Source: a virus
Virus record (IMG/VR): IMGVR_UViG_3300021505_000001
Span: 91,703 to 155,702 of that record
DNA length: 64,000 nt
Direction: 5' to 3' (one strand)
This document shows, piece by piece, positions 3,026 to 62,994 of this stretch (positions are counted from its first letter, which is position 1; each line of letters opens with the position of its first letter). The notes under the pieces are model-generated. The model ran no database searches. It was given only the letters and a program-made list of their open reading frames with translations, and had not been told where the DNA came from. Both the position numbers and the translations under genes were made by a program.

Positions 3026-3035
3026 ATAAATACCT

Positions 3036-3353
3036 TTACTTACTGTTCAGTAGTTTAGCATTTTTTATTATGGACATTATTTTATTAAATAACTGTTGTA
3101 TTTTTTCAGAAACTTTGTTTGCTTCTTTTACTGTTGCTATACCTACCATATAGGAATAATTCTCTATATTTTCAACAACTACTTTTCCGTATATTAATTT
3201 ATTTTTGGAAGTCTTTGCAGACAGTTTTTCCAATGTAGGGGTTAAATATCTTGATACGGGAACTTTTACAAAAACCAAAATATAGTCTTTGTCCATTAAT
3301 TTTATCTCTATTTTTGCATTACTGTTAAGCATTTTTTCTAAAACTTTTTCCAT
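3036..3353 (-). CDS. Hypothetical structural-operon protein, 105 aa
   Basis: A strong AAGGAG ribosome site sits 7 nt before the ATG. The protein alternates strands and helices, is Lys-rich and has no cysteine or membrane segment. It follows the 570-aa gene by 13 bp in the same leftward late operon. Function unknown. Confidence 0.7.
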   Translation of the reverse strand: MEKVLEKMLNSNAKIEIKLMDKDYILVFVKVPVSRYLTPTLEKLSAKTSKNKLIYGKVVVENIENYSYMVGIATVKEANKVSEKIQQLFNKIMSIIKNAKLLNSK

Positions 3354-3366
3354 TTTTTTAATCTCC

Positions 3367-5079
3367 TTAAACGATAGCTTTAACTGGGTTTACAATTATA
3401 GCCCTATCCTCTCTCATAGAAATTATGTTTTGTTTTTTCACTGTTAATTTTATTGTATTTTCTCTTGGTTCCATATAAACAGCTTCTAATGGACGTGCTT
3501 TCCTATATAACTGTCCATCTAAAACTTCTTTTTTTGGAAGGGGTAAAAATACATCGATTTTATTACTATTTATTTTATCAGAAATATTATTTTTTGCTGT
3601 TACTATGAATTTAGCTAATTCATCTCCTTTCAAATTTATATAGTTACGTAATATTTTTATTATAATTATTGGGGTAAACACAGAAGGTTGTATATACTGT
3701 ATTGTTTGATATGGTACATAATGGAGTTTTTCTACTTTAGCTATTAATAGCTGAAGTAGAAAATACTGTAGTGTGGGTTTAGAATTTTCTAACTGAATAT
3801 TATAAATTTCATTTATACCATGTCCTATCTTTAATAGTTTACTATCAAATGTTGTCAATGAAGCCATTATATCTGCTGGTAATAAATGAATTGCTAAACC
3901 ACTAAGTAAAATCAATCCATCATTATAGTCAATTGATGAAGCTACTGATATTACCATATCTTTATAACGCAAAGCATTTTCTTTATGTAATGCAGCTAAA
4001 ACACTTGCTTTATCAGAGGCGTCTAAATTTACATCGAACAATATTGTTTCAAGACTTTTGTTGTTTCTTTCTATTGAACTTATTTGTTTCCCTATTACTG
4101 TATTTAAAGAATCAATAATTTCCGTGTAACGTTTTCCATCCATCCTTTTTAATATTAAGGCATGATATAGAGTAACGTTACGTTGGAAATTTGATAAATC
4201 ATCAGAAAGAGAAACATCTACAAGAAGTTTACCTAATAATGCTATCCAAAATTCTTTGTTTGCAAAGTAATTCTTTGGTAGAAGAGACAAATTATGTGTT
4301 ACAAAGGATGCATCTTTTAAAGACTTAGAAGATATAAACTGAGATATAATACCAACTATTTTATTTGGATGAGGGTTTACATAATTAAGAAATTTTGAGA
4401 ATTCATTTCCAAAATTAACTGGGTCTTTTATGTTAGACACTTTAAGTTTGTATGTTACAATATTTCCAAGTTCTTTATTTTCATGTGGTTCTTCAGGAAT
4501 AATATTATTTTCTATTAGTTCTTTAGTTTTTTCATAACCAATAATTTTAAAGGGTAATTTGGGAATTAAAGGAAAAGTCAAAGGCTCTACAGCTTGTTCT
4601 TTTACTTTTGTATTTCTTTTCTTACGTTTTAGCCCTTTTTGTTTTTTTGTTTTAGTTATAAGTTGAAAATCAGTTTTAGTTTTGCTGTTTTTAAAATTAT
4701 CACGTATTGTTTTTTGATAAACTTTATCCTGTGTTAGAACATAAGCATATGTCGCTTGGTTTAATCTACTGCGTTTCTCTTTGTGAGATGTTATGGCATC
4801 AAATGTTTGGCTTCTTTTATGTATATTTTGCCATATATTACTATCTTTGGGAAAGAGTTTTCTAAGGTTTGTAATATCTTTTGTATTTACGGTCTGCTCT
4901 ACTTTATCATAGTTGGGAATTCTTAACAAGTACGATTTGGCAGGAATCTCCTGAGCTTTCTTGATCATTTGCTGTAATTTTTCAGGACGAATGTAATAAG
5001 TCCTAAAAATTACACCTTTTCTTGGGTCAACAGCCCCTTTTAATACTGGTACTAAATATGTGCTTGATTTGAAAGGCAT
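3367..5079 (-). CDS. Hypothetical virion-associated protein with N-terminal RTYYI motif, 570 aa
   Basis: The N-terminus carries LVPVLKGAVDPRKGVIFRTY, completed as RTYYI. A version of this module recurs in the 5113 and 5913 proteins. A very basic segment lies near residues 140-165 (KTKKQKGLKRKKRN), followed by a long helical domain to the C-terminus. No enzymatic motif is visible. The shared N-terminal module, the late-type promoter at 5440 and the neighbouring structural genes suggest a capsid-internal or connector-associated protein; this is inference. The ribosome site is weak. Confidence 0.7.
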   Translation of the reverse strand: MPFKSSTYLVPVLKGAVDPRKGVIFRTYYIRPEKLQQMIKKAQEIPAKSYLLRIPNYDKVEQTVNTKDITNLRKLFPKDSNIWQNIHKRSQTFDAITSHKEKRSRLNQATYAYVLTQDKVYQKTIRDNFKNSKTKTDFQLITKTKKQKGLKRKKRNTKVKEQAVEPLTFPLIPKLPFKIIGYEKTKELIENNIIPEEPHENKELGNIVTYKLKVSNIKDPVNFGNEFSKFLNYVNPHPNKIVGIISQFISSKSLKDASFVTHNLSLLPKNYFANKEFWIALLGKLLVDVSLSDDLSNFQRNVTLYHALILKRMDGKRYTEIIDSLNTVIGKQISSIERNNKSLETILFDVNLDASDKASVLAALHKENALRYKDMVISVASSIDYNDGLILLSGLAIHLLPADIMASLTTFDSKLLKIGHGINEIYNIQLENSKPTLQYFLLQLLIAKVEKLHYVPYQTIQYIQPSVFTPIIIIKILRNYINLKGDELAKFIVTAKNNISDKINSNKIDVFLPLPKKEVLDGQLYRKARPLEAVYMEPRENTIKLTVKKQNIISMREDRAIIVNPVKAIV

Positions 5080-5439: not shown

Positions 5440-5462
5440 AATGTTTTATCCTATAAAACATT
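5440..5462. promoter_or_regulatory. Divergent late-type promoter pair (palindromic)
   Basis: A minus-strand TAAAACATT (5448-5440) and a plus-strand TAAAACATT (5454-5462) form a palindrome with 10-bp arms and a 3-nt spacer between the leftward 5364 gene and the rightward 5489 gene. The right-hand copy is 26 bp before the ATG at 5489. Confidence 0.6.
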
Positions 5463-8982: not shown

Positions 8983-11900
8983 ATGGCTGAAAGCCGTGTT
9001 TTAACAAATATACCGTATACAACACATAATTATAGTAATTATGATATTGTTACTGAAGAAACAAGAGATATTGTTGATGTTCCTTATTTTCCAGCTCAGA
9101 ATTTAGTTGATGTTTCAAGGAAACTAAATCTCTATAATCCTATAGCTGATGTTTATGTTCCATTTATTGATGATTATGGACATGAGAGACTATTCGCTTT
9201 ACTGTTTAGAAAAGATGCTCGATATCTCTTTGTAGAATTTGCTGATAATGCCCGTTATTTAAGTTATGCTTTTTCGGGTAATTCTTTTCCGCAGGGTCGT
9301 GAAGATACTTCATATACTTATGATGGACATAATTTCTATCTGTTTGGTGGTTTTAGTGATGGTAGATGTATGAACGACATGTGGGAATATGATCTCAATT
9401 CAAATAGTTGGCGTATGGTCAATTTTTCAAATGTTGAAATTACAGCAAATGAAGCTCCTACAAGACGTAGAAAAGCAAGTATACTTAAAACACCTTCTAA
9501 ATTATATTTGTTTGGTGGTGAGACAGATGTTTTATCTATAAATACAGCTAATACAGATTCCTTTATAGTACCTTTAAATGATATTTGGGTATATGACTTT
9601 GATTATGAAACTTGGACAAATTTTGATAAAAATAGAGAAATCCCTCATCGTCCTGGAAATATCATTTACGCTGACAGTGCAGTTATTAAGATTATTGTCA
9701 AAGGAGGTATTAATGAAATAGGTATTAATGAACCAACAGCTATATGGACTATTGATATTGCTACAGATGATGTTACAAGTCAGGTATTTTCTCCACCATT
9801 TACACCATCATCAAATAATGTATGTCTGCTTGTTGACGGAAATTATTGTATATTAACTGATGGAGGAGATTTGTATAGATGGGATAATACAAATGGTTCC
9901 TTTCATCTTGAAAAAAGTAATGCTACTGCTGTAAATCCTATTACTAAACATTATTGGAAAATAAATATTATAGAAAAAGATTATGGTAATAATTCCACAA
10001 TGGGACATACTGATATTCAGATTGCTGAAGAATATCAATGGGATGATACACTTGTTTCTACTAGGGATATAAATCTTATTCCAAAAGGAGTTTCTATATC
10101 CTCTATAAATGTTGGTAATCTTCAAACATTCTTTTATGGAGGAATGATCGATAACCAACATTTTAATGAATCAACTTATATATATAATCACACAACAAGA
10201 AGTGTAGAAAAATTAGATTTTGTACCAGAAGAAAGACCAACTGAAAGAGTATTTTCATCATTTGCTTATGATAAGTTTCGTGGACGTGTATGGTTATTTG
10301 GTGGATTTGATGGTTCAAAATACTATAATGATTTATGGTATTTTGATCTGGGTTTAAAGAAATATTTTAAGGTACATGATCAACTTGAAAATACAGATGT
10401 GGATAATCCTAAATATCCTCAACCCCGATGGAAAGCAGGTATGGCTGTAGTAGCAGAAGATTATCTATATGTGATAGGTGGATATTCAGATGTTAGAGCT
10501 TTTAATGATTTTTGGATGTATCATATTCCAACTGGGGAATGGAAAAAAGAATATCCTGTAGATGATATTCCTTGGGGTTCTCAATATTTTATTTTTGAAT
10601 GGAGAGATAGGCTTTGGTTTTATAATGGACAAAAACTATATCGTTACTTTTATAAAATAAAACAATTTGTTGACCAACCATTTCTAATTCCAGATATATA
10701 CACAGATAATTCAACGAATCATAAAACGATTGTTGACGTAATTCAAAGTAAAGAATATCTTGACCCACCTATAGATGTTACTGTTACAAATGATGCTTTG
10801 TTTGTTCAGAATATTAGCAGTGGAAAAGGATATACTTTTCGTGTGGACTTAGAATCTCGTGTTCTTATGGATTTAAATTTTGATTTTGACTTTGATGAAA
10901 AAGTTTTATGGATGGATAGATACTATGGTGTAGGTGTTGGAAGTTTATCTGACTACTATATTAACGTTTCACTACTATATCCTCTTACAAAAAATCAAAT
11001 TCCAAATTCTTATTTCCATAGAGAAACAGATGAAATGCCTTTAAATGCTCTATGGTTTCAGGATTATTCAGTAGTATCCGGTGAAAATAAAGAATCCTAT
11101 ATGGATAATGCTGGTATTTTTAGAATACAAAAAGAAACAATTAAATTAGATAAAGCTGAACTTCTTGTTGATAGAGAAATATCTGTAGCTGGAACAAATG
11201 AATGGGTTCCAAATGTAAATTTTGATGACCCTGATGATGTTTGGAATGCAACTATAGACGTTATAACAAAACCAACATCTTATGTATATACACCATGGTT
11301 TTTATATCAAAAATATCTTCCACCTGGTTTTCCCTATAAGGGGGCACAAAAGGTTGTTTATAATAGTAGTGCCAAAAGGATATATATTATCTATAAAAAT
11401 GGTAATACAGTTAAATACAATCCATTTGATAATACTTTCTTTACATATTTTAGTAAAATATGGGAAGGCACTGCTATAGGATATAATGAAAAAATTAATA
11501 AAATATATGCTTTTGGTGGCTTAAAAAATGATAGAAAAGTATATATGCAATCAGGTGTAGAATGGAATCCAGTTGTAATAGGACAAAAGAATGGACAAGG
11601 TTTTTCTGCTGTAGGAACAAAAGAAGAACAAAGTCATTGTGGTTTAATGGAATTTGACCTTAATATGAATGAAATGAACCTTGGTAGTATTGAAGGTTAT
11701 TTAAGAGAAAAAAAGGTTGCATCTGTTGACTATTCAGTGACTAAAGAATATCTAACAGAAATTGTTAGACATTATATTGAAGGTTACTCTCAGAATATTA
11801 TTCCTAATTCATTAGATGATATTAAACAGAAAATTTATCAGGCAACACAACCAATAGTAGATGATTTATCTCAGTTTGATTTTGCTTTTGAAAATGGAAC

Positions 11901-14385
11901 CCGTCCTCTTTCAAAAGCTTATACACTTAGTACACAAATAGGTAGTAAACTTTATATATTTGGTGGGGGACAATGTTATACGGTAGAATGCACACCAGAA
12001 ATAGCTAATACTCCTTATTGGGTATGTAAACCTGGCGCATTACAAAATGAAGCTGCTGATGATCATGATGACTCAACACCACCACCTTATAATCCAGATG
12101 TGGAAGCACGTAGAGCTTATGAATTCGATATGGATACAAGAACTTGGAAAGAGTTAAGTTTATTACCTGAATGGTTATATGCTGGTACTGCTATTCCTAG
12201 TCCAGATAATAGATATATTTATCTTGTTGGAGGTTATACAGTAGAAGATTGTGGTTCTCCTTCTGATAAGATTTACGTTTATGATACTTATACTGATAGA
12301 TATTCAGAAATAAAAGGTATTCCTTCTACATATGCTGGAAGAGCCCTTCCTGTTCTGAAATGGATTGATGATGAACATTTAATGATTCAATTTGGATGTC
12401 GAACACATACTGTATGTGAATCAGGAGGCGGGTGTACATTCTGTCACCATGTCCATATTCCTATAAGAGATACTTGGATAATGGATACCAGAAACTTTTT
12501 ATTTTATAAAGCTTTTGAGGACATTTCAACTTTTACTGGGATGCTTGTAAAGGATTCTTTCTATGTTGGGGATGAAAGAGATGAAAGTAAAGTGTGGATA
12601 ATGAGTACATCCCCAATTGAAGATAATAATGGAAATCCAACTTTAATTGTATATGAGTGGAATCTTGTTAATGGAGATGTTGATGTCTTACCAGTAATCC
12701 CTTCAAATGAAATTATAAACGACTATAATATGTTTAGTTTCATGGATGATGAGAGTAAAGCTGATTCTCTTTTTGAAGATGGTGGAGGTACATCTACTAA
12801 AGATTTACTGATGTTCTCAGCATTAAAGAGTAATTTCCGTTTCCGTTATGCATGGAGTGAAGAATATGGAACTTACAATCATAAACATTTATTTATAGTG
12901 GGAGAAAGAGCAGAAAAATCAGGTATAGAATTTATAGAGGAGATAGCACGTGGACATAAAGAAGCTCATTTACGTTTTTGGTATGTTGATATGGAGGTTC
13001 CTGCTAATGGACGTGTAATGGTAAATGTTACTTATGAATATCCACTTCCAATATCACCTGTTTGTATAGCTTATGATGGAGATAAATACCTATATGTTAT
13101 TTACAATAAATACAATATATGGCGTTTAAATTTTAAAAAAGTTTTAGAAGATGTAAATGGAAATTGGTGGTATCAATTACCCCCATGTATGGATTGCAAT
13201 TTCTTGGGGGATGACAGAACAGATGATGCATGGCAGTCTTTCTTTACACCACCAAAATATCTCACTCTTGTATCTCAAGATGGAAAGTATGCTAGGATGG
13301 ATGCTGAAACCTTTACATGGTTTTTAGATAAGAAAGACCCTCCTGAGCCTCCACTTCCAAAAATGAAATTAAAGGCAGCATCCGGTGTTGATCAGAATGA
13401 AATTTATATGTATCAACTTGGTTCTATTGCTGGTAAAGTAATGAATGTTTATGAAAGGCAATGGGATAATTTCTATTTTGATATGACAATTACAAATGAT
13501 GTTGTCAAAAACTTTCAGGCTGTTATAGATAAAAATTTGTGGCCAACTATAATAAGACGTAGGAGATTATATACAATAAATTCTTTTGGGCATGTATTTT
13601 ATGCTTGGTTGCGAATAGAAGGTAAATTTGATGTTGAGTACCAATTAAATGATTTTTATCAAGGAGATGAAGTTCGGATTTATGGTGATTATGCATTTTT
13701 ACAACAGTGGGATAATGCCAAAGTATCTGTTTTTACTATAAATAATGGTTGGGTAGAAATTGACCAATCTAATCTTACTCCAATTACAAATGAAACAGGA
13801 TGGGATTGGGATAGTAATTTCATGAGGCGTTACCGGCGTGAATTTGTTGGTGCAACTGGAGATATACAAGTTCAATACTCTAAAGTTCCACCAAATTATC
13901 TTTCTGTTGATTTAGATAGTGCTATTGGTGATGTACCAATATCAAAAATAAGAGTATTCTTTCAAAATGACCCAAAACCATATAATTATATGTCTCATAT
14001 TAACAGAGTAGAACTAATAACTAATCAAGTTATTATGGCTGCTTATGATGACCCAAATTCAGCTTCCCCTTTAACAATCGTTCATATAGAACCTTTGTCA
14101 CCAGAGCAGGATTATAGTAATGAATTTGCAATTTATGTTAGAAATGATGGTTCTGATACAGCACGGGAAGTACAAACTTATGTAATGAATAATGAATGGG
14201 TTCAGTTTACTAAAGACCCAAATGATCAAACATCTTGGACAATACGTGATGAAAATCATCCGTTTTGGTTAGAAGATGAATTATTACCAGGAACAGTAAC
14301 ACGTTTCTATGTAAGAGCTGTTAATATTGATATGAGACCTCATCTTAAAGACTTGGTTGTTAAAGCTATTTATCCATTTAGCTAG
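8983..14385 (+). CDS. Giant Kelch-repeat virion protein, 1,800 aa
   Basis: I set the start at ATG 8983, 8 nt after AGGAG, rather than the upstream GTG at 8974, which overlaps that site. The protein carries Kelch-type blades with the G-G, Y and W signature: YLFGGFSDGRCMNDMWEYD (near residue 117), LYLFGGETD, VWLFGGFDGSKYYNDLWYFD, LYVIGGYSD, LYIFGGGQ and IYLVGGYTVED. At least two propellers are implied. A Cys/His cluster (CTFCHHVH) lies near residue 1150. The C-terminal ~100 residues look like an Ig-like domain. Its size, late promoter and neighbours suggest a tail or fibre protein for surface recognition; Kelch domains commonly bind proteins or glycans. Confidence 0.8.
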   Translation: MAESRVLTNIPYTTHNYSNYDIVTEETRDIVDVPYFPAQNLVDVSRKLNLYNPIADVYVPFIDDYGHERLFALLFRKDARYLFVEFADNARYLSYAFSGNSFPQGREDTSYTYDGHNFYLFGGFSDGRCMNDMWEYDLNSNSWRMVNFSNVEITANEAPTRRRKASILKTPSKLYLFGGETDVLSINTANTDSFIVPLNDIWVYDFDYETWTNFDKNREIPHRPGNIIYADSAVIKIIVKGGINEIGINEPTAIWTIDIATDDVTSQVFSPPFTPSSNNVCLLVDGNYCILTDGGDLYRWDNTNGSFHLEKSNATAVNPITKHYWKINIIEKDYGNNSTMGHTDIQIAEEYQWDDTLVSTRDINLIPKGVSISSINVGNLQTFFYGGMIDNQHFNESTYIYNHTTRSVEKLDFVPEERPTERVFSSFAYDKFRGRVWLFGGFDGSKYYNDLWYFDLGLKKYFKVHDQLENTDVDNPKYPQPRWKAGMAVVAEDYLYVIGGYSDVRAFNDFWMYHIPTGEWKKEYPVDDIPWGSQYFIFEWRDRLWFYNGQKLYRYFYKIKQFVDQPFLIPDIYTDNSTNHKTIVDVIQSKEYLDPPIDVTVTNDALFVQNISSGKGYTFRVDLESRVLMDLNFDFDFDEKVLWMDRYYGVGVGSLSDYYINVSLLYPLTKNQIPNSYFHRETDEMPLNALWFQDYSVVSGENKESYMDNAGIFRIQKETIKLDKAELLVDREISVAGTNEWVPNVNFDDPDDVWNATIDVITKPTSYVYTPWFLYQKYLPPGFPYKGAQKVVYNSSAKRIYIIYKNGNTVKYNPFDNTFFTYFSKIWEGTAIGYNEKINKIYAFGGLKNDRKVYMQSGVEWNPVVIGQKNGQGFSAVGTKEEQSHCGLMEFDLNMNEMNLGSIEGYLREKKVASVDYSVTKEYLTEIVRHYIEGYSQNIIPNSLDDIKQKIYQATQPIVDDLSQFDFAFENGTRPLSKAYTLSTQIGSKLYIFGGGQCYTVECTPEIANTPYWVCKPGALQNEAADDHDDSTPPPYNPDVEARRAYEFDMDTRTWKELSLLPEWLYAGTAIPSPDNRYIYLVGGYTVEDCGSPSDKIYVYDTYTDRYSEIKGIPSTYAGRALPVLKWIDDEHLMIQFGCRTHTVCESGGGCTFCHHVHIPIRDTWIMDTRNFLFYKAFEDISTFTGMLVKDSFYVGDERDESKVWIMSTSPIEDNNGNPTLIVYEWNLVNGDVDVLPVIPSNEIINDYNMFSFMDDESKADSLFEDGGGTSTKDLLMFSALKSNFRFRYAWSEEYGTYNHKHLFIVGERAEKSGIEFIEEIARGHKEAHLRFWYVDMEVPANGRVMVNVTYEYPLPISPVCIAYDGDKYLYVIYNKYNIWRLNFKKVLEDVNGNWWYQLPPCMDCNFLGDDRTDDAWQSFFTPPKYLTLVSQDGKYARMDAETFTWFLDKKDPPEPPLPKMKLKAASGVDQNEIYMYQLGSIAGKVMNVYERQWDNFYFDMTITNDVVKNFQAVIDKNLWPTIIRRRRLYTINSFGHVFYAWLRIEGKFDVEYQLNDFYQGDEVRIYGDYAFLQQWDNAKVSVFTINNGWVEIDQSNLTPITNETGWDWDSNFMRRYRREFVGATGDIQVQYSKVPPNYLSVDLDSAIGDVPISKIRVFFQNDPKPYNYMSHINRVELITNQVIMAAYDDPNSASPLTIVHIEPLSPEQDYSNEFAIYVRNDGSDTAREVQTYVMNNEWVQFTKDPNDQTSWTIRDENHPFWLEDELLPGTVTRFYVRAVNIDMRPHLKDLVVKAIYPFS

Positions 14386-37228: not shown

Positions 37229-37270
37229 GTTTTTCAAATGTTTTCTTTATAGGTAAAACATTTGAAAAAC
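37229..37270. promoter_or_regulatory. Divergent late promoter with 16-bp palindromic arms
   Basis: GTTTTTCAAATGTTTT (37229-37244) and its exact inverse (37255-37270) flank a 10-nt spacer between the 37206 and 37310 genes. Each arm carries an AAAACATTTGAAAAAC element facing outward. The same two arms recur at 39297-39340. Confidence 0.7.
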
Positions 37271-39296: not shown

Positions 39297-39340
39297 GTTT
39301 TTCAAATGTTTTAATAACGTATAGAAAACATTTGAAAAAC
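39297..39340. promoter_or_regulatory. Divergent late promoter, second copy of the 16-bp palindromic module
   Basis: The 16-bp arms at 39297-39312 and 39325-39340 are identical to those at 37229-37270, with a 12-nt spacer. They drive the leftward 39269 and rightward 39362 genes. Confidence 0.7.
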
Positions 39341-46592: not shown

Positions 46593-47288
46593 TTATTTTG
46601 GATATTCAAACAAATTTCCAACTATTTTTGAAATACTATCGTAAGAGGGTTTGACATAATACTTTTGTAATTTACCAAAAGTATTATATCGAAAGAAAGT
46701 TCCATTTTTTTCCATATCATTCAAATCAGTAGCCCAATTTTTGCCAATATCATATAACATTTGATGCATATCACATTGTTTCTTGCCTTTAAGCTGTTTA
46801 TTAGAAAAGAAATGTCTACAATACATTTGAAGGCTATTCTTTTTCCAATCCATTGCACGCCACAGCAAACAATTTACGACTTCATTATGAGGGATATTGA
46901 AAGCTCTGGCATCAAATACAACAGGATTTTCATAACTCCCATACAATTTATTAAAGAAAACAGACATATAAGATGCTGTAACACTTTCAATTTTGTTTAG
47001 TCTATAACCAAACCATGCTTCTGTGTTCAAAGTATCATAATCAGCAAGACAAAATGTAACTTCATCACTTTGAACATAAGCTATTTTAAAACCCTGCATT
47101 TGGCGGGAAACTTCTATCGCTGAGTTTACCATAGCTTCCATCAATTGACTATCAAAAGGCCTTTTACAATGTTTTGTAAACGTATGAAAAGCCTTTCCAT
47201 CAACCCGAACTATTAATGGGGTTCTCCTTAAAGCATACCTTTGTGTTACAAATTCATAACGTTTAAAACGTTCCCCTATAGTAAGCAT
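46593..47288 (-). CDS. tRNA-His guanylyltransferase-like protein (Thg1 family), 231 aa
   Basis: Thg1 enzymes add nucleotides in the 3'-to-5' direction, classically G-1 on tRNA-His, using two metal ions. The catalytic residues are all present: RVDGKAFHTF with Asp30, and VQSDEVTF with Asp75 and Glu76 (human D29, D76, E77). Length and layout fit the bacterial/archaeal Thg1-like proteins, with WRAMDWKKNS in the finger region. No tRNA-His gene is seen in the window, so it probably acts on host or distant phage tRNAs, or repairs damaged 5' ends. GGAG precedes the ATG. Confidence 0.9.
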   Translation of the reverse strand: MLTIGERFKRYEFVTQRYALRRTPLIVRVDGKAFHTFTKHCKRPFDSQLMEAMVNSAIEVSRQMQGFKIAYVQSDEVTFCLADYDTLNTEAWFGYRLNKIESVTASYMSVFFNKLYGSYENPVVFDARAFNIPHNEVVNCLLWRAMDWKKNSLQMYCRHFFSNKQLKGKKQCDMHQMLYDIGKNWATDLNDMEKNGTFFRYNTFGKLQKYYVKPSYDSISKIVGNLFEYPK

Positions 47289-48753: not shown

Positions 48754-49116
48754 ATGCCATTACACATTCCTATAAAAATATCAGATTCTACCTTTATAAT
48801 CGAAAGTAAATTAATTATATTTATAATAAATGGCACTCTGACAGCTATTATAGGGGGAATAGTTAGAAATTTAACGGATTATTCTGATACTATAAGAGAT
48901 TTAATCATTGAGGGGATAGTTGCAGGATTCCTTGGATTTATAGCTTCTTTATTTTGCTATGAACACCAATTTACTTTCTCTCATGTACTTATAACTTGCA
49001 GTATTTGTGGGTTTCTAACAAGAAATATTTTAAAAAATTTAAATGAAGTTGAACTATTAATAACAAAGTGGAAAGAATTCACTGATTTTATAAAAAATAA
49101 TCCTGATGATAAATAG
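48754..49116 (+). CDS. Small membrane protein, holin-like, 120 aa
   Basis: Three hydrophobic segments are visible: about 23-40 (LIIFIINGTLTAIIGGIV), 53-70 (IVAGFLGFIASLFCYEHQ) and 76-92 (FSHVLITCSICGFLTR). The pattern 'loop-G-G-I-V-R ... G-F-L-G-F' and a charged C-terminal tail resemble three-helix phage holins, which form lethal membrane lesions at lysis. No endolysin is in the window, so holin is only a suggestion. AGAGG precedes the ATG. It starts a rightward three-gene unit with a second membrane protein and a receiver domain. Confidence 0.7.
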   Translation: MPLHIPIKISDSTFIIESKLIIFIINGTLTAIIGGIVRNLTDYSDTIRDLIIEGIVAGFLGFIASLFCYEHQFTFSHVLITCSICGFLTRNILKNLNEVELLITKWKEFTDFIKNNPDDK

Positions 49117-49127
49117 AGGTATTTAAA

Positions 49128-49721
49128 ATGAATAAAAAACTTCAAGGTTTTTTAATATTTTTGTCTGTTGCTATAATCTTATTTGGTATATTTACTCCTT
49201 CATTGTTATTAATAGTATTTGTAGGGTATCTTCTATTTTATGAAGGTATTTGCCTGATAAGTGGATTTTTTGAATGGATGGAATCTAAAAAAGAAAGGTA
49301 TTATGAAGTTACTGGAACTGTAAAAAACTTGATAGGAACACATCTAAGGGCATCTCTATTTATAATATTTCCTTTAGCTTCTATTACTTTAATTATTACA
49401 GACATCCAAAACTATCATACATGGAAAGCAATTTTATATCCATATACAGATTTTCTAACAATTTTAAATCATACAAGTAATAGTGCTGAATTAAACATAG
49501 GTAGATTCCTTTTTGAAACAACTACAAGAGCATTTCTTATATTCAATTCTCTTCAGATTATACATACTTCTATAGTTTTAGAAAGAATAATTGGTGTAAG
49601 ATTTACCAAAAAATATCCTCCTCTTACAAATATAATCTACAAAATAGTTAAATGGGCTAAAGAATGTGATGAAACTAAAATTATAGATACTGCTGAAATA
49701 ATTTCCTTCTTAGAGAAATAG
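49128..49721 (+). CDS. Membrane protein, 197 aa
   Basis: Hydrophobic segments lie near residues 6-24 and 26-45, then 70-88, and probably 120-140. The loops include a charged stretch (GFFEWMESKKERYYEV). AGAGGT precedes the ATG. It is 11 bp after the first membrane gene and 2 bp before the receiver gene. No family is recognised. Adjacency suggests that the three work together. Confidence 0.7.
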   Translation: MNKKLQGFLIFLSVAIILFGIFTPSLLLIVFVGYLLFYEGICLISGFFEWMESKKERYYEVTGTVKNLIGTHLRASLFIIFPLASITLIITDIQNYHTWKAILYPYTDFLTILNHTSNSAELNIGRFLFETTTRAFLIFNSLQIIHTSIVLERIIGVRFTKKYPPLTNIIYKIVKWAKECDETKIIDTAEIISFLEK

Positions 49722-49723
49722 TT

Positions 49724-50275
49724 ATGACAAATGAAAAATGTCCAACAATAAGAATCATAGATAATAATGTTACTATTTTAGAGATATTACAAGATGTTTG
49801 TTCTTCTACATGGAAAAATGCAAACATAAAAACATATCTTGGTAATAATAATCTAAAACTATTGGAACTCTGTAACTCTTCACTTTTGATATTAGATCAA
49901 ATACTAGATAATACAACAGGTATTGAAATTATCAAAGAAATGGCAAATAGTTATAAAGATAAAGAATTACCTGCTGTTATTCTTATGACAGGGATTCCTA
50001 AAAATGAAATACTCAGTATAATTAAAGAAAGTAATATCATGGATAGGGTAAAAAACTTAATAATTCTATTTAAACCATTTCATATAGTAACTTTACATGA
50101 AGTAGCCTGTAATATGTGTATTGAGTTATGTAACGAAAAACTATTTTCTGTTGATTGTGATTGTCATAATAACAACTTTCAAGAGAAGTCAAAATCTATA
50201 GTACAAAAGTTATTCAACGTTATCAAAAATAAACAAAGAAAACCTACTCATAAACAAATAATAAATGAAAATTAA
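49724..50275 (+). CDS. Stand-alone response-regulator receiver domain, 183 aa
   Basis: The CheY-like residues are all present: acidic Asp13 (RIIDNN), phospho-acceptor Asp58 (LLILDQIL), Thr89 (LMTG) and Lys117-Pro118 (LFKPF). Residues after about 125 form a Cys-containing helical tail and a basic C-terminus with no DNA-binding domain. Stand-alone receivers relay phosphate from a histidine kinase; none is in the window, so a host kinase or an unphosphorylated switch are options. It is the last gene of the membrane-protein island. Receiver domains are unusual in phages. Confidence 0.8.
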   Translation: MTNEKCPTIRIIDNNVTILEILQDVCSSTWKNANIKTYLGNNNLKLLELCNSSLLILDQILDNTTGIEIIKEMANSYKDKELPAVILMTGIPKNEILSIIKESNIMDRVKNLIILFKPFHIVTLHEVACNMCIELCNEKLFSVDCDCHNNNFQEKSKSIVQKLFNVIKNKQRKPTHKQIINEN

Positions 50276-50279
50276 AACT

Positions 50280-51677
50280 TTATGTCATTGAACATTGTTT
50301 TGCCATATTAACTACAAATTGTTTCTCAAATTGAGTTTTAATCCCAATATTATCTAAGAAATTATTAAACCAACGTTTTGTCTGGTTCATACCTCTTTCA
50401 GTAAGAGGAGTAAGTATATCTTCCTTAAATCCTGTTTTGTTCCTTAAACGAATTGTAGAAAATTCTGGCATTTCATAATCTGGAACATTCTGATTTTCCA
50501 TTCGTTTTGTATATGCCCTAGTATCAGCACCTATTTTTGAAGCAAAAATTAGTTGATTTGAAATATAAGCTTCGTTGGCTACAGGACCCGGATATCGTAT
50601 TTCCAATCTTCCACCTGATCCAAACCTAAAATCATGTCTTTCAGAATCATAACTTTTCCGCATACCAAGATAACTTGATGATTCCCACCTAGGATTAGTT
50701 TTCGTTAAAGCATTAAATATACTACCTACATGATTAAGATATGTTGATATAACTTCTTGTTTATGTGTATCAGAATTAGGAACAGTAGTGGATATATGCA
50801 TCCCAGCAAATTTATCCATTACAACATCACGTCTATCTAAAATACCTGTTTGCTTCCAAGCATTTGTCATAAGATGAGACATCATAATCATATTTGATAA
50901 TGGAGCTGAACCTATAACAATTTCTCTGGCTGTTCTATTTCCTATAGAAGAAAAAGACCCATCATTATAAGCTGTAAAAGATGTTGAAGTAGAATGACCA
51001 GAAGAAAAATCATATGTCATTAAAGGTGAAACTTCTATTCCTGTTGTTTCTTTAATTGGGTCTATTACAATTTTATTTAATAGTTTTTGTTCAGGTGTTC
51101 CACTGGGTATTTTCCATCTACCCTCATATTCTAATGAAAAATAATTTGGATGCAAAGCAAAATTTGGAACAAATATACCTTTCTTACTATTTAATGGAAC
51201 AATCTTTCCATATTTAAGTAATTCCTTAACATGTGTTTTATTTACAGGATTTTTAGAAATATTACTAATAACAAAGTTATCTAAATCAATTCCATTTTTA
51301 AAATTAGATTTATTAATCTCTTGTAATGTCTTTTTGAAATCTAAACTGCGTTGTGAATACTGCTGATTTTCTGAATGCAATCTTTTCTTTTTTTTAAGCT
51401 TATAATTCATTACATCTATAGTTGCTAACTTAACATTTCCATCATCTTCAATATCCCATATATATGGAATTGAAGAAGCCTCTATAGGTAATTTAAATTT
51501 ATTTCCTTTTCCTCCATTAAATAAACGTATCTGTCTATCTATTTTAAGTTTATCTAAATCTATACTTTCTCCTATTGTTTTATAGACTTCAGGAGATAAA
51601 TGTAAATCAGCAGTATTTGTTAATTTTTGTAAATATTTAGAAGTTTTTTGTGCTAAATCATTGTAATCAATTGTCAT
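50280..51677 (-). CDS. Amidoligase-like (glutamine-synthetase fold) protein, 465 aa
   Basis: The C-terminal part has the motif order of GS-fold amidoligases: FSLEYEGRW (near 179-187), YNDGSF, REIVIGSAPLS, GMHISTT (near 291-297) and GRLEIRYPGP (near 359-368). These parallel the family's 'GvElE', 'DgS', 'EivSp', 'GlHvHv' and a later catalytic/ligand Arg/Glu. Such enzymes form amide bonds using ATP. The N-terminal 170 residues are unrecognised. GGAGG precedes the ATG. It is the last gene in an operon headed by a second amidoligase-like protein at 52708. Assignment is by motif pattern only. Confidence 0.6.
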   Translation of the reverse strand: MTIDYNDLAQKTSKYLQKLTNTADLHLSPEVYKTIGESIDLDKLKIDRQIRLFNGGKGNKFKLPIEASSIPYIWDIEDDGNVKLATIDVMNYKLKKKKRLHSENQQYSQRSLDFKKTLQEINKSNFKNGIDLDNFVISNISKNPVNKTHVKELLKYGKIVPLNSKKGIFVPNFALHPNYFSLEYEGRWKIPSGTPEQKLLNKIVIDPIKETTGIEVSPLMTYDFSSGHSTSTSFTAYNDGSFSSIGNRTAREIVIGSAPLSNMIMMSHLMTNAWKQTGILDRRDVVMDKFAGMHISTTVPNSDTHKQEVISTYLNHVGSIFNALTKTNPRWESSSYLGMRKSYDSERHDFRFGSGGRLEIRYPGPVANEAYISNQLIFASKIGADTRAYTKRMENQNVPDYEMPEFSTIRLRNKTGFKEDILTPLTERGMNQTKRWFNNFLDNIGIKTQFEKQFVVNMAKQCSMT

Positions 51678-51731
51678 CTTTTTTCCTCCAGCATGGATAA
51701 CACAGCTTTATATATGTGACGCTGACCAATA

Positions 51732-52238
51732 TTATCTCTTTAATTTCATTCCAGGTTTTATTCTAAATACATTATATGCATTTGTATAAGTTACTATTTT
51801 TTCATAAGTTTCTGAAGGATTTGCTACATGACTATTTGCTAAAAAAGAAATCATCTTATGAGAATCAGGCATTTCAACATAGAAAAAACTAACATCTGAT
51901 ACCAAAGAAGCTTCATTTATAAGATAAAGGAAACTCAAATCATTTAAATTGTGTTTTGATGGTTTTGAATCATTAATTATAGACTTTTCAAGATAATAAC
52001 GACATAAACCATAATCAGGGTTGTCCATTATGGAATAGTAAAGCCATGTAGTAGGACTATTATAATCCTTTGACAATGGATAGTAATCCTTCCATATTTC
52101 AGCAATTATATTATAAGGATGTTTATAGGTTGACATAACTTCACGTTTAATCCCATGCACCCTACAATATAATATATAGGAGCTATACTGTCTGGGAAGG
52201 ATAGATTTTATAAATGTTTCAGTATCTTTTAATCGCAT
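51732..52238 (-). CDS. Hypothetical protein, 168 aa
   Basis: I set the start at ATG 52238 (MRLKDTETF), with GAGG 9 nt upstream, over the TTG one codon earlier. The protein is helical and Tyr-rich (SSYILYCRVHG; DNPDYGLCRYYLEKS). No family is recognised. It lies between the 136-aa gene and the 465-aa amidoligase-like gene, so it may provide or recognise the substrate. Confidence 0.65.
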   Translation of the reverse strand: MRLKDTETFIKSILPRQYSSYILYCRVHGIKREVMSTYKHPYNIIAEIWKDYYPLSKDYNSPTTWLYYSIMDNPDYGLCRYYLEKSIINDSKPSKHNLNDLSFLYLINEASLVSDVSFFYVEMPDSHKMISFLANSHVANPSETYEKIVTYTNAYNVFRIKPGMKLKR

Positions 52239-52241
52239 CAA

Positions 52242-52652
52242 TTAAAACCTCATAAAGATGTTCATATTGTCTTTTATATGCTTTTTTACTTCATCAAATG
52301 AATATAATTTTATATCGGATCGTTTATGTTTATCTTTAAGATAGTATTCAATTACTTCTTTTATGTCTTTCCAATTACGCTTATTAAAATCAAAAACATA
52401 TGGGAATATTGAAGTAATTAAATTTCTTGTTTGAGATTTGTCAAGAAAAGTATTTTTTACCAAAGTTTTAATATTGGCTTTATCTACATACTTATAATAT
52501 CTTTGAAGATACCCAGCTACAAACATATCAAATCCTGTATAAATATTTACAGGACTTGCTAAATAAAATATTTCAAAAATTTTTATAGGATTATTATCCC
52601 ATATAGAATCCTCTACAGCAATTAAACCTGATTCATCGATTAAAACTTTCAT
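52242..52652 (-). CDS. Hypothetical protein, 136 aa
   Basis: I chose ATG 52652 (MKVLIDESGLIAVED) with GAGG 8 nt upstream, over an upstream start that would overlap the preceding gene. The protein is helical with many aromatic and Lys residues. It follows the 977-aa amidoligase-like gene in the same operon. Function unknown. Confidence 0.65.
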   Translation of the reverse strand: MKVLIDESGLIAVEDSIWDNNPIKIFEIFYLASPVNIYTGFDMFVAGYLQRYYKYVDKANIKTLVKNTFLDKSQTRNLITSIFPYVFDFNKRNWKDIKEVIEYYLKDKHKRSDIKLYSFDEVKKHIKDNMNIFMRF

Positions 52653-52707
52653 TACTTTTCCTCTATTATGAAACCCCTTGCTTTTTAAACATGGGTTTAA
52701 GGTGTTA

Positions 52708-55641
52708 TTATCCTCTACAGTGGGTACTATACATTTCCCACCAGAATTTTTGTCCAACTGGATTGTTTATTCCCATAACTTCTTTTAATAGTTTTTTAAA
52801 TGAAGTACTATTATCCCATCCTTCAGTAGGAGGAATAAGTTTATCAGTTTTTGCAAAATTTCCTCGTTGTAACCCACCTTGGTATATATCAGATGCTAAT
52901 TTGGTTGTAAAAGCTAAATGAGCTAAACTAAAATCACCTCCAGGTCTAAAAATAGCTGTACGATTTTCAATAATTCCATGAGCAGTTAATTTATGTACAG
53001 CTACAGTACGATATTTTGCTAAACGATTTTCATTTGAAGAGGCATGGAAAGCGTTAATTTGTCCATAGTGTTCCCCATGTTTTCTTAACCATTCATATTC
53101 AGTTAACCCATTCCTAGCCATTCTAACGTTGGAAACATCTTGTGCCCAAAATTGACGACCTCCATATTCAGCTACATTTCTTGCTGCCTCCGGTGTTAAC
53201 CGTCCAATATTTGCAAAAGTATCTCCTGATGGCATTACACCATTATCATAAGGCCATCCACTTATAGCTCTATAACGATAACGATTATCAGGACTTGTGG
53301 CTTTTTTGTAAAAATCTTCTGTAAGACGTAAATAATCAGCCATAAAACGTATGGAATCTTTTCTAAGACCTGGAGGAATACTTCCTACATTAACATGTAT
53401 TCCAACTGGATCATTTCTACTATAACTATGGTGTTGTATTTCCTGTGCCCCAAAATCCTTTAACGCCTCAGCAAACATATAAGTGGCTTTAAATCCTCTG
53501 ATTCCTGACATAGTTGGAGATACATATTCGGTTCCACCACCAGGAATAGAAGGTTCTGATGTAGTGTTCCAATCTCCAACAAAACCCAAATTATTAAGTT
53601 TATATCCAAAACGGTTTTCAACATGATTTAAAATATCTCTTATTCCTGTAAATATATTTGTCTCCCATTCCATTCCCATTGTAAAATCAGGGGAAGCAAA
53701 TGATGGAACAAATATAGCATCACTTCCTTTTATAGGAATAATATATCCATTTCCTAAAGCATCACGGTAAGGTATATCTGTATTCAATAAATTCCATTCT
53801 TCTGTATCCCAATTTATATTTGGAGTAGATGCATTTCGAACATCTATATCCTGATTATTATTACGCATTAATTGGGAATGGAATGCCTGAGTACCTATAG
53901 CATCTGTTAACCATATTTGTTTACCATCTTCAGTTTTACCAACTAAAGCTCCACCAAGAGACAAAGCTTTTTTTCTTAAATTAGAAAGCTCATTTGGATT
54001 ATCAACAATAACTTTATCAAAAGCATCAGTAGGTAAAGAATTTTTACCTACTTGTTCATAGAACTTTTCTGAAGAATCATTAATATCAAATTGTTTCCTA
54101 AGATTATTTAATTTCTTTAAGGCTTTAATGGTTCTTTCAGTAGTTGCTACATTTGGAATACCTTCCTTTTCAATACCACCTATTGGAAATCTTTCTTCTA
54201 AACGTTTAAATTCTTCTGGAGAAATAATTTCAGGACGAAAATCCAATCTTCCTCGTGAAGTTGTTTTTATTTTTCTACTTGCTTTCTCATAATTATCAAA
54301 TTCATCATTTGTAAATAAAGAATTTTCACTATCAAATAAAGAAAGAAGATTTTCTTCTGTAAGTGATTGTTCTGGTTGTTGTTCTTCACGTCTTTCAGGT
54401 TGTCGTTCTTCACGTCTTTCAGGTTGTCTCTCTGGTTGTCTTTCAGGTTCCTCACGTATAGGAGTTTCTTCACGTCTTTCAGGTTGTCTTTCAGGTTCCT
54501 CACGTGTAGGTGATTGTTCTGGTTGTCGTTCTTCACGTCTTTCAGGTTCCTCACGTGTAGGAGTTTCTTCACGTCTTTGTTGTGCTTCCTCAGTAGTAAT
54601 TTCTCCTTCATCATCAAAGGTAAGTGTTTCACTTCTAAAACTATTAAGTAAATCCCCAATTGAAATACCACTTTGAGAACTTTCTTCGTTTAAATTGGTA
54701 GAATCTTCATGTGATGCTTCAGAATATCTTTGTTGAGATTCATAATTAGCAAGTCCAATATAAGGATTAGAATGATCAATTGTATTAAGAAATTGTTGTA
54801 TATTAAGATTGCCACTTTCATCTTTACTATTATCAAGTGCCTCAAAAGTTCTACGGCGTAACGATGGACCATCTAATGGAAAACCATTATTAGTACCTCC
54901 CCGTGCAAAAACTGTTTCTAATCTACTATCAAACGAACGGGCACTTAAACTAACATTATTATGAAAATAAGTATTAAAGTCAACTGGAGGAGTACCTTGT
55001 TCATCTCCATAGGCTATTTTATAAAATGGATTATAACAACCTGATAAACCAAATCTATTTGCTATATCCCTAAAATATTCACCACCATTATTTTCATTTT
55101 CTGTATAGGCTGAACCCATAGGAAGGTCAAATTCTCTGGAACCTACATATTGTAGAACATCCATAATCTTTATATCATCTGCATCGACTTCATCATTAAA
55201 AGCCATTAAAGCATTAGCAGATATAGAAGGTGAACTATAAACACCACCATATACTAAAGGCACACCAGTAGTATTTAAATTATTACTATGATATTTATTA
55301 ATAACTGTATTGTAATAATGAGCAGCAGCTAAATGTCGAGTTCTAGCAGCTAAATCTCTATCAGAATTGGGTTCCGCATCTAAATGTGTAACAATCATTG
55401 CTTCATTACTACGTACACGAGTCAATTCTGTAGGAACCGTAGATAAAGCTGATGCTGTTGTTGGAAATTCTCCACCATCCCTATCCCTGAATCTAGTAAC
55501 CAGAAAACGCTGTCCTCCTAAAGTATTATGAACAAATGTCTCTACTCGTCGTCCACGTATAAGATTAGTATTATCCAGATGTTCATTAATACTATTAGTA
55601 TCTAATAAATCAACTTCACTGAGACTCCTAAATAAACGCAT
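52708..55641 (-). CDS. Large amidoligase-like (GS-fold) protein, 977 aa
   Basis: Residues about 650-960 show amidoligase motifs: GMEWETN (near 655), a WNTTSEPSIPGGGTEYVSP segment (near 690-708), AEALKDFG, and GIHVNVG (near 747), ending with RTAIFRPGGDFS (near 899). The N-terminal ~330 residues form an unrecognised domain. Residues about 350-425 are a low-complexity linker of EEPER/QPERREE units. AGAGG precedes the ATG and a late-type TAAAACATT lies 37 bp upstream, so I infer late expression and possibly packaging in virions. Catalysis is not proven by sequence. Confidence 0.6.
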   Translation of the reverse strand: MRLFRSLSEVDLLDTNSINEHLDNTNLIRGRRVETFVHNTLGGQRFLVTRFRDRDGGEFPTTASALSTVPTELTRVRSNEAMIVTHLDAEPNSDRDLAARTRHLAAAHYYNTVINKYHSNNLNTTGVPLVYGGVYSSPSISANALMAFNDEVDADDIKIMDVLQYVGSREFDLPMGSAYTENENNGGEYFRDIANRFGLSGCYNPFYKIAYGDEQGTPPVDFNTYFHNNVSLSARSFDSRLETVFARGGTNNGFPLDGPSLRRRTFEALDNSKDESGNLNIQQFLNTIDHSNPYIGLANYESQQRYSEASHEDSTNLNEESSQSGISIGDLLNSFRSETLTFDDEGEITTEEAQQRREETPTREEPERREERQPEQSPTREEPERQPERREETPIREEPERQPERQPERREERQPERREEQQPEQSLTEENLLSLFDSENSLFTNDEFDNYEKASRKIKTTSRGRLDFRPEIISPEEFKRLEERFPIGGIEKEGIPNVATTERTIKALKKLNNLRKQFDINDSSEKFYEQVGKNSLPTDAFDKVIVDNPNELSNLRKKALSLGGALVGKTEDGKQIWLTDAIGTQAFHSQLMRNNNQDIDVRNASTPNINWDTEEWNLLNTDIPYRDALGNGYIIPIKGSDAIFVPSFASPDFTMGMEWETNIFTGIRDILNHVENRFGYKLNNLGFVGDWNTTSEPSIPGGGTEYVSPTMSGIRGFKATYMFAEALKDFGAQEIQHHSYSRNDPVGIHVNVGSIPPGLRKDSIRFMADYLRLTEDFYKKATSPDNRYRYRAISGWPYDNGVMPSGDTFANIGRLTPEAARNVAEYGGRQFWAQDVSNVRMARNGLTEYEWLRKHGEHYGQINAFHASSNENRLAKYRTVAVHKLTAHGIIENRTAIFRPGGDFSLAHLAFTTKLASDIYQGGLQRGNFAKTDKLIPPTEGWDNSTSFKKLLKEVMGINNPVGQKFWWEMYSTHCRG
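54370..54590. repeat. Low-complexity repeat encoding Glu/Arg/Pro linker
   Basis: Short interspersed direct repeats (variants of TTCACGTCTTTCAGG and GGTTCCTCACG) encode REEPERQPE-type units in the 977-aa protein. The number of units probably varies between relatives. Confidence 0.75.
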
Positions 55642-55914
55642 ATTTGAACCTCTTTATTAGTATAAAATATTATTTTTTAATGTTTTATATAAGAAAGATA
55701 TTTTTGGAAAGAAAATAGTAGAAAGAATTGAAAATAGAAGGGTTTTTATAAAAGACAAGAATCTATTCAATATTATTTAAATGTCGTTTTGAAACTATAA
55801 AAGTATCAATTCCTTGGGTTTTCCCAAATTCACAAATACTTAAACATTTTTAGATTGCTATTAATAAGAGATATTGTAAATGTCTGAATAGTTGTATCAA
55901 AGAAGCCTGACATG
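55642..55914. other. Intergenic region, 273 bp
   Basis: The late-type element at 55679-55687 (minus strand) lies near its left end. The rest has no gene. A short hairpin TTGGG/CCCAA (55814-55827) lacks a T run, so I do not call a terminator. Confidence 0.5.
55679..55687 (-). promoter_or_regulatory. Late-type element TAAAACATT
   Basis: Minus strand, 37 bp before the 977-aa amidoligase-like gene, preceded by CTTATA and followed by an A-rich tract as at other virion genes. Confidence 0.55.
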
Positions 55915-60630: not shown

Positions 60631-62994
60631 TTAATCCCAACTACGTTTTCTTATGGTTTCAAAATCATCTTTAATAAATATGTCCCCATTTTTAAAAACT
60701 GTATTCAAAAGTGGTTTCCAATCAAATGGCACTACATTTCTTTTATCTGTAGTTACATATTTACCTTCTGTTGTTTTATATAATGTAAGTAAACCTTTTT
60801 TACTAGCCTTCCATGGAGCATCTTTTGGACATTTAAAAACATCATACCATCCATTATTTCCATATATGGCACTACATTTCATAGCAAATTTATAAGTATC
60901 TCGATTTACTTGTTGTAAAAGACCTCCACCCATACCAAATGATATATTATCTACACTAAAATTTTCTGCTACAACAGCCTCCAGTATTTCATCAACAACA
61001 TCAGGATTGGATATTCCATCACCCTGAATAACTTTAACATAATTAATAACATTATAACCTTTACTATTTGATTGATACCCAAAACTATTTGCTAACATTT
61101 TAAGGGCACGAACAACCACTTCTTTTGGTTCTCCACTGTCTGGACGAATAACTACAGTTGCCCCGCTATTAATTACTTTCTGCTTTAACTCCTTACCCCA
61201 TATATTACTAATAGCATTATCCAAATCATAACTATCACTTACACAGGCAACAACTGTACCAGGTTTAGCAAACTCATCAAGTAAGCTTTCATATGCTTCT
61301 CTTTCTCGTTCTTTGCCCCAAGCTGTAATTGTACTATGTTCAGAATTACCACATACAACCACACAATCATTTCGTCTGACAACTAACATTCCACTGGGAA
61401 CAGTAATACAATAAATATTTCCTTTATAATCATATGTTTCAGCTATAAACTTATATCTTTTATATCTGCACTTACTGTTATATGTAAAACTAACTGTAAA
61501 CAGATTTTTACGATTATCTCTTTTATCCTTATAAAGATGTGTGCTTACAAAATAACCACATAGAGTACCTATAGCGGAAACAATATCTACTACCTTACGA
61601 TTTACTGTAGAAAAACTTATAGTTTGTTTCCCTGCTATCTTACCATCCCAATACTGTAATTCCTTAATAAAATGACGCCCCCATTCAAATGTTAATTTAC
61701 TAATATCTACCCATTCAAAATTTTTATCTATAGGTATATTTACTGGCCATTTAACATAAAAATGAGTTTGTCCTTTTTGAGTACCATTTGTTATTAAAGT
61801 TTGTGTATAATCCAAACCTGCTTCTTTCAATAATTTGCACAATCTATCTATTTTACGTTGCTTTTTAAATTTAAAACGTATTCCTTTACAACCACTTCTA
61901 CTACCATCACGCTTATCATCATCTGCAAAGAAAGACCCATCAGCCTGAAAAGCAACTCTTATAGCATCAATAGGTGTAAACTCATTACTGCCATTTTTAA
62001 TAAAACCACAATGTTTAAAAAACAAATTCCTATCATAATTTGTATCATCTGCATAAGTTACACATATCTTATTTTCATTATTAAAACGTATCATTCTATG
62101 ATTAGGTGTAACACAGATATCCAATCTTTTAGGAACACTGCTATTAAATCTATACATTTTACCATCATAGAATTCTGATACTTTATTTGTGTAATTAACA
62201 AATTCAATACTACCATCTTTATTATATTGAGCTACCTTTAAATTATCATCAAGTTCATCAAATCTTTTCCAGCCCTTTTCAGTTAAAATTTCAGTCTTTT
62301 CATCATAACATGCAGGCAGACTATATGCAGGCATTTCCTTTTTGTTTTTTTGGTCATAGTATTTCCATACACCTACAATGGCAGCTGTAGTATCAGTACC
62401 CATAAAGTTTACCAAATGAGATAAACCACCAATCATAGCACTCTGATAACTACTTACACCTCTAAAACCAAAATCATGTAATTTAAATGGGAGACCTTCA
62501 AGAGTATCACATGTTTTTTCCATCCATTTTTTTATAACTTGTTTTATTTCCCAACTTCTTGTTGCTACAGTAGTTGGATACCACATTTGTAATATTTGAG
62601 TTTCCATCCAACCAGGAAGCCAATAAAAATCAGGTTCCGTATTTTTAATAGTCATAATTACATTCTGAGTGGGAATTATTGTCCCTTCTGGAACAGCTTC
62701 TATTTCCATTGGATAATAACCCAAATCAACTATCTTCTTCCAACCATCATAGTTAAAAATACCTTTACCAACATGAATATCCCAAAAGTATTTTGCTTCC
62801 TCTACTTCTTCTATTGTTGGAAGTCTCAACAAAGCTTCTTCTATAATAGGCTTATATATAGGAAGAATATGCTTATTTTTACTTCTACTTTCTATATAGT
62901 AGAATGTCCCTTTTGTATCTGGTGGGAATTGTTTATAATGAGTACTTTTATAGCTATCTGTAGCTATTGCCGGATTGTAAGCTAATTGGAGCAT
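60631..62994 (-). CDS. nadV: Nicotinamide phosphoribosyltransferase (NAMPT/NadV) with intein, 787 aa
   Basis: NAMPT makes NMN from nicotinamide and PRPP. Without the intein (residues 229-550) the host protein is 465 aa, near the usual length. Conserved parts are visible: LHDFGFRGVSS (172-182), FMGTDTTAA with Asp201, the catalytic-His loop SEHSTITAWGK just after the intein, VIRPDSGEP and GDGISNPD. AGGAGG lies before the ATG. The upstream gene (63011) makes NAD+ from NMN, so the two form a complete two-step salvage route. Such phage pairs are known as NARP2 and restore NAD+ depleted by host defences. Confidence 0.9.
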   Translation of the reverse strand: MLQLAYNPAIATDSYKSTHYKQFPPDTKGTFYYIESRSKNKHILPIYKPIIEEALLRLPTIEEVEEAKYFWDIHVGKGIFNYDGWKKIVDLGYYPMEIEAVPEGTIIPTQNVIMTIKNTEPDFYWLPGWMETQILQMWYPTTVATRSWEIKQVIKKWMEKTCDTLEGLPFKLHDFGFRGVSSYQSAMIGGLSHLVNFMGTDTTAAIVGVWKYYDQKNKKEMPAYSLPACYDEKTEILTEKGWKRFDELDDNLKVAQYNKDGSIEFVNYTNKVSEFYDGKMYRFNSSVPKRLDICVTPNHRMIRFNNENKICVTYADDTNYDRNLFFKHCGFIKNGSNEFTPIDAIRVAFQADGSFFADDDKRDGSRSGCKGIRFKFKKQRKIDRLCKLLKEAGLDYTQTLITNGTQKGQTHFYVKWPVNIPIDKNFEWVDISKLTFEWGRHFIKELQYWDGKIAGKQTISFSTVNRKVVDIVSAIGTLCGYFVSTHLYKDKRDNRKNLFTVSFTYNSKCRYKRYKFIAETYDYKGNIYCITVPSGMLVVRRNDCVVVCGNSEHSTITAWGKEREREAYESLLDEFAKPGTVVACVSDSYDLDNAISNIWGKELKQKVINSGATVVIRPDSGEPKEVVVRALKMLANSFGYQSNSKGYNVINYVKVIQGDGISNPDVVDEILEAVVAENFSVDNISFGMGGGLLQQVNRDTYKFAMKCSAIYGNNGWYDVFKCPKDAPWKASKKGLLTLYKTTEGKYVTTDKRNVVPFDWKPLLNTVFKNGDIFIKDDFETIRKRSWD
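61345..62310 (-). mobile_element. Intein with LAGLIDADG-type endonuclease in NAMPT, 322 aa
   Basis: The insert begins with Cys229 (CYDEKTEILTEKGWKRF, intein block A) and ends VVVCGN before Ser551. VTPNHRMIRF is block B (TxxH). AFQADGSFF (near 348-356) matches the ADG part of a dodecapeptide endonuclease motif. Block F/G is YCITVPSGMLVVRRNDCVVV with final Asn550 and the +1 Ser551 needed for splicing. The usual penultimate His is Gly. The insertion lies at PA|SEHS, directly before the catalytic His, a typical conserved insertion point. Confidence 0.85.

Follow-up and report, generated by a model that had tools for sequence, protein, structure and literature searches.

Do two proteins encoded in one operon of a large T4-like phage form amide bonds, and if so, on what? 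We analyzed the final 64 kb (the window) of a 155.7-kb viral record with 30% GC. The source phage is T4-like by its capsid, portal, terminase and head protease, with only 25-30% identity to anything named, and a search of IMG/VR with its major capsid protein returned no kin.

A four-gene operon with a promoter-like motif

A first-pass annotation had described a four-ORF operon with amidoligase motifs in its two largest products, p977 and p465. All four minus-strand ORFs (977, 136, 168 and 465 aa) are present where it had placed them, with operon-like spacing or overlap (Table 1), and the ordered motifs could be located at defined residues of both proteins. Curated libraries gave no match for any of the four; the ligase domain of p977 found none in Pfam, PHROGs, NCBIfam or the PDB, and no relatives were found for the 136- and 168-aa proteins, which had zero matches in curated libraries. 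Close kin of p977 and p465 were absent from IMG/VR, GTDB and 50,697 phage records. Scanning IMG/VR for LEIRYPGP returned zero matches, and the 16 matches to GIHVNVG were all judged to be chance. The two small proteins were also compared with LUZ24 gp17, and a gp17-like identity was rejected.

Table 1. Coordinates of the operon and its features in the window
Feature	Position	Strand	Remark
AAAACATT promoter-like motif	55679..55686	-	45 nt before p977 start codon; common to structural genes
p977	52708..55641	-	977-aa ORF; the N-terminal part is unknown, a charged repeat linker follows, and the C-terminal domain is amidoligase-like
Glu/Pro/Arg low-complexity repeat of p977 (residues 351-431)	54349..54591	-	
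Segment IIPIKGSDAIFVPSFA of p977 (residues 634-649)	53695..53742	-	Resembles p465 residues 159-174
GS-fold amidoligase-like domain of p977, E-x-E to G-I-I-E-N-R (residues 656-894)	52960..53676	-	
GIHVNVG motif of p977	53383..53403	-	H-x-N variant of H-x-H
136-aa protein	52242..52652	-	ORF counted from ATG; mechanical TTG start gives 171 aa
168-aa protein	51732..52238	-	ORF counted from ATG
p465	50280..51677	-	465-aa ORF; probable second, more divergent amidoligase-like protein
Ordered p465 motifs, S-L-E-Y-E to G-R-L-E-I-R-Y-P-G-P (residues 181-365)	50583..51137	-	

The late-type promoter that had been proposed for the operon holds as a statement about sequence, in that its motif is shared with structural genes. 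Counting occurrences 20-75 nt before the start, we found AAAACATT at 19 of the 152 mechanical ORFs of the whole record, whereas 300 shuffles averaged 1.1 and never exceeded 4; the opposite orientation gave 7, several from divergent pairs. The genes that carry it are mostly structural, including the capsid-operon leader (874 aa), the head protease and the genes preceding portal and terminase. It also precedes the genes for a 995-aa and a 1803-aa protein and p977, and none of the genes bearing it is a recognized replication gene. By this motif the operon is late, its timing being read from the motif. A sigma-70 region 2 protein is also encoded in the record. At window positions 5447-5455, 37244-37255 and 39312-39325, the overlapping, opposed motifs of divergent genes form near-palindromes.

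Several other features of the record were observed along the way. Facing the operon tail to tail on the plus strand (window 48754-50275) are genes for a LydA-type holin, a membrane protein and a response-regulator-receiver-like protein. The minus strand of the window carries a tRNA-His guanylyltransferase gene (46593-47288), which Atu_ph07 also has, near its capsid region, and a nicotinamide phosphoribosyltransferase gene (60631-62994) with a split PHROG match and an intein-like insert at about residues 228-552. Another gene with a similar insert lies at record positions 2671-4560, and three tandem paralogous genes made of repeated ~30-aa units occupy record positions 70556-73761.

Amidoligase homology of p977 and, probably, p465

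The ligase domain forms only the C-terminal part of p977; the remainder is the unknown N-terminal part and the repeat. Its motifs are GMEWE (656-660), SEPS (695-698), GGGTEYVSP (701-709), GIHVNVG (747-753), TE (774-775), R787 and KYRTVAVHKLTAHGIIENR (876-894). A motif regular expression was tuned on 28 reference phage amidoligases, 26 of which it matches. Apart from p977 and p465, the only ones of 418 other ORFs that it matched were two COOH-NH2 ligases, genuine if distant relatives; among the 394 ORFs outside the two ligase families, p977 and p465 were the sole matches. The shuffled C-terminal domain of p977 produced a match in 51 of 20000 trials. COOH-NH2 ligases of type 2 (PF14395; for example, LUZ24 gp16) share, according to the literature, the fold class of the amidoligases. 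An identity of p977 or p465 as such ligases was considered and rejected; the PF14395 profile detects neither.

Profile comparison carries the case for p977. With a profile of 14 podophage amidoligases, p977 ranked best of 418 non-family ORFs, matching in two pieces, in order, on both diagnostic blocks, and its domain outscored all 3000 shuffles. When amidoligases of large phages were added and p977 was excluded, the domain scored 13.7 bits (0/3000 shuffles, best 5.2; hhalign P 2e-5), and full-length p977 was the top non-family ORF of about 2,000 in the combined-profile search (E 0.0065). Adding 11 further family members, again with p977 excluded, gave 13.0 bits, 0/3000 shuffles and an hhalign P of 1.3e-5 at 81% probability. 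The profile alignment is in the right register from E-x-E through GIHVNVG. The combined set gave the best score; the huge-phage subfamily profile alone placed p977 only moderately (P 4e-4). MAFFT aligned the motif blocks unguided in several alignments, and in some others the C-terminal motif block of p977 fell out of register. In alignment A8, p977 retains all ten family-invariant columns, E-x-E, Ser, Glu, His and Glu-x-Arg among them. On these comparisons we regard it as established that residues 656-894 of p977 are homologous to phage amidoligases; they would constitute a divergent glutamine-synthetase (GS)-fold domain, so that this part of the first-pass identification stands. The Pfam comparison proposed with it was negative: p977, its domain and p465 have no PF12224 (Amidoligase_2) match even at E 10. 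The curated cut-off of that family is 22 bits; both proteins fall below it and are therefore filed not as members but only as distant relatives. The second His of H-x-H is replaced in p977, and activity is not guaranteed for that reason.

Structure prediction yielded no confident fold for p977. A single-sequence AlphaFold2 model had a pLDDT of 33. Modeled with relatives, residues 641-940 of p977 reached 54 overall and 70-80 in the core, with the expected order of strands and helices; because the folding alignment (A11) was picked for keeping the motif register, this model counts as weak evidence only. Its matches in BFVD were headed by an unnamed protein, followed by the amidoligase of Arthrobacter phage Salgado (E 2.5e-3, prob 1.0), and named amidoligases from Salgado, Atu_ph07 and others were among the viral matches, a partly circular result, given that the folding alignment contained relatives. 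Searching the PDB with the p977 model gave no GS-fold match; the best PDB matches were of other folds.

For p465, the amidoligase assignment is plausible, and we consider it likely that this protein is a second, more divergent amidoligase. Its motifs, SLEYE (181-185), NDGS (238-241), REIV (251), GMHIS (292-296), R330 and GGRLEIRYPGP (355-365), occur in the same order as those of p977, in the same operon. The independent profile support obtained for p977 does not extend to p465, which phage amidoligase profiles left undetected (P 0.04-0.07, scores inside the shuffle range), and its motif match arises in 31 of 20000 shuffles. Both results speak for a reading in which only p977 is an amidoligase and p465, a late protein, is unrelated and has its motifs by chance. 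We think this reading unlikely, in view of the shared operon and motif order and of two further likenesses. BLASTP found a collinear 35-aa similarity between p465 and p977 whose end falls exactly on E-x-E in either protein (E 4e-4; 1/3000 shuffles), and GRLEIRYPGP of p465 resembles the E-x-R strand GRIELRYFGG of SCTP-2 gp125. In raw BLAST against p465, p977 does no better than two unrelated ORFs.

Relatives at baseplate loci of large phages

Following the BFVD match to Atu_ph07, we found PF12224-like genes in three of the six capsid-nearest phages. The Atu_ph07 protein (AUZ94978.1) lies above the Pfam cut-off and carries H-x-N, the Vibrio phage 2.275.O gene falls just below the cut-off, and SCTP-2 has an adjacent amidoligase pair, gp124/gp125 (PHROG 33777), as the p977/p465 operon has. 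Further members came from 462-735 kb records (LR756500, LR745206 and LR756501-LR756504), and five records are from phages of >600 kb. A single pattern scan of IMG/VR yielded at least 305 relatives (contigs), of which 80 were kept (L068-L147); the family as a whole is one of ~432-aa amidoligases of the H-x-N type. The residue two past the His is Asn in 70 of the 80, the same variant as in p977. Next to phiEco32 or LUZ24 an H-x-N or H-x-S signature looks unusual, but it is the norm in the huge-phage family. No amidoligase annotation was seen for any member.

In 70 of the 80 loci, a gp5-like OB baseplate hub gene lies 1-3 kb upstream of the amidoligase. Downstream genes are conserved in 77-79 loci, one of them gp25-like (77 loci; a weak PDB match, E 0.002) and a larger one gp6-like by position and length only. 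These gp5-like and gp25-like neighbors place amidoligases of this type in the tail gene cluster of other large phages. In Atu_ph07, the amidoligase gene adjoins a putative tail lysin and the portal gene. Members share with p977 the E-x-E, EP-x-S/GG, E-[LY]-[VI]-[ST]-x-P, G-I-H-x-N/S, KY and E-x-R elements, as well as an origin in large T4-like phages near structural genes. They differ in length (~430-650 aa) and in being without the long repeat linker of p977, and the main clade differs in its baseplate-cluster location: the p977/p465 operon is outside any baseplate cluster, and our own profile found no gp5-OB-like ORF in the record.

Possible roles of the ligases

On balance, these comparisons suggest that the operon encodes, for production with the structural proteins, one clear (the p977 domain) and one probable (p465) GS-fold ATP-dependent carboxylate-amine ligase. 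Ligases of this fold, as Iyer et al. reportedly described in 2009, bind metal and ATP via Glu and His residues and an Arg, and are said to prime a carboxylate so that an amine can attack it. In the mechanism that we propose, the N-terminal part of p977 and its long charged linker would tether the protein to the virion or to an assembly intermediate, and the ligase domain would join an ATP-activated carboxylate to an amine. The resulting amide bond may be placed on a virion protein of the tail or head, or on a peptide of the cell wall where infection or release takes place. p465 could be a partner or provide a second specificity, and the two small proteins may be accessory factors or substrates.

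Known phage amidoligases are regarded as early wall-modifying enzymes. The nearest described systems are those of phiEco32 (gp84) and LUZ24 (gp18), whose PF12224 proteins resemble p977 in motif order and in the invariant E-x-E, Ser, Glu, His, Tyr and Gly-x-x-Glu-x-Arg, but have H-x-H where p977 has H-x-N and are only 370-390 aa long. They also differ in that their genes belong to an early cassette, alongside COOH-NH2 ligase, GATase, RimK-like and GGCT genes. The operon might nevertheless be a late counterpart of that cassette, with ligases that alter host peptidoglycan side chains and so exclude other phages or change lysis. Both phages likewise have two GS-fold ligases with a small gene between them, and two recurrent partners of phage amidoligases, GGACT-type cyclotransferase and class-II GATase (PMC5498523, PMC5513430, PMC11318856), are encoded in the same genome. 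A GGACT gamma-glutamyl cyclotransferase (E 2e-21) and a class-II glutamine amidotransferase (GATase_4, E 1e-24) lie side by side at record positions 10076-11434. This pair, however, is ~130 kb off in the linear record, outside the operon and beside a sigma factor, and the sole phage matches of the YafJ-like GATase are in no amidoligase cassette known to us. Profile search found no RimK-like ATP-grasp in the record, the small genes of the operon are not gp17-like, and the operon does not gather two ligases, GATase, GGCT and ATP-grasp in one cluster as phiEco32 and LUZ24 do. Moreover, known cassettes sit among early or replication genes (PMC5498523), whereas the motif of the operon is late. We hold wall modification to be improbable. 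As a separate observation, record positions 10076-12487 encode consecutively the GGACT, the YafJ-like class-II GATase and a sigma-70 region 2 factor.

Less probable still is that the GS-fold domains are catalytically dead and serve late proteins as modules for structure or binding. Their extreme divergence, the lost second His, the missing match to any curated model and, in p977, the charged linker and long unknown N-terminal part to which the domain is fused would all fit such a role. Against this, every position that is invariant in the family alignment (E-x-E, Ser, Glu, His, Glu-x-Arg) is intact in p977, and relatives also conserve H-x-N, a pattern unlike decay. A role linked to the structural proteins is the reading that we tentatively favor over wall modification, and a dead domain or some other function would account for the rest. 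Because the relatives lie in baseplate clusters, a late, tail- or assembly-linked former of amide bonds appears likelier than an early wall cassette of the phiEco32 type, and the virion or tail option likelier than the window alone implies.

It is conceivable, if doubtful, that an amide-bond-forming enzyme is widely incorporated into the tail baseplate of large T4-like phages, or used on it, with p977 and p465 as a highly divergent, late, two-enzyme form. If true, a baseplate ligase encoded in the hub-wedge gene interval of hundreds of aquatic phages would be either a means of virion self-crosslinking or tagging or a tail-delivered wall-modifying enzyme. The baseplate-cluster family is the more general finding: hundreds of large phages, including records of >600 kb, carry such relatives, and Atu_ph07 and SCTP-2 are cultured phages that have relatives. 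Together with these baseplate-cluster relatives, a ligase made with structural proteins would suggest that covalent amide-bond chemistry takes place in the phage tail or is performed by it.
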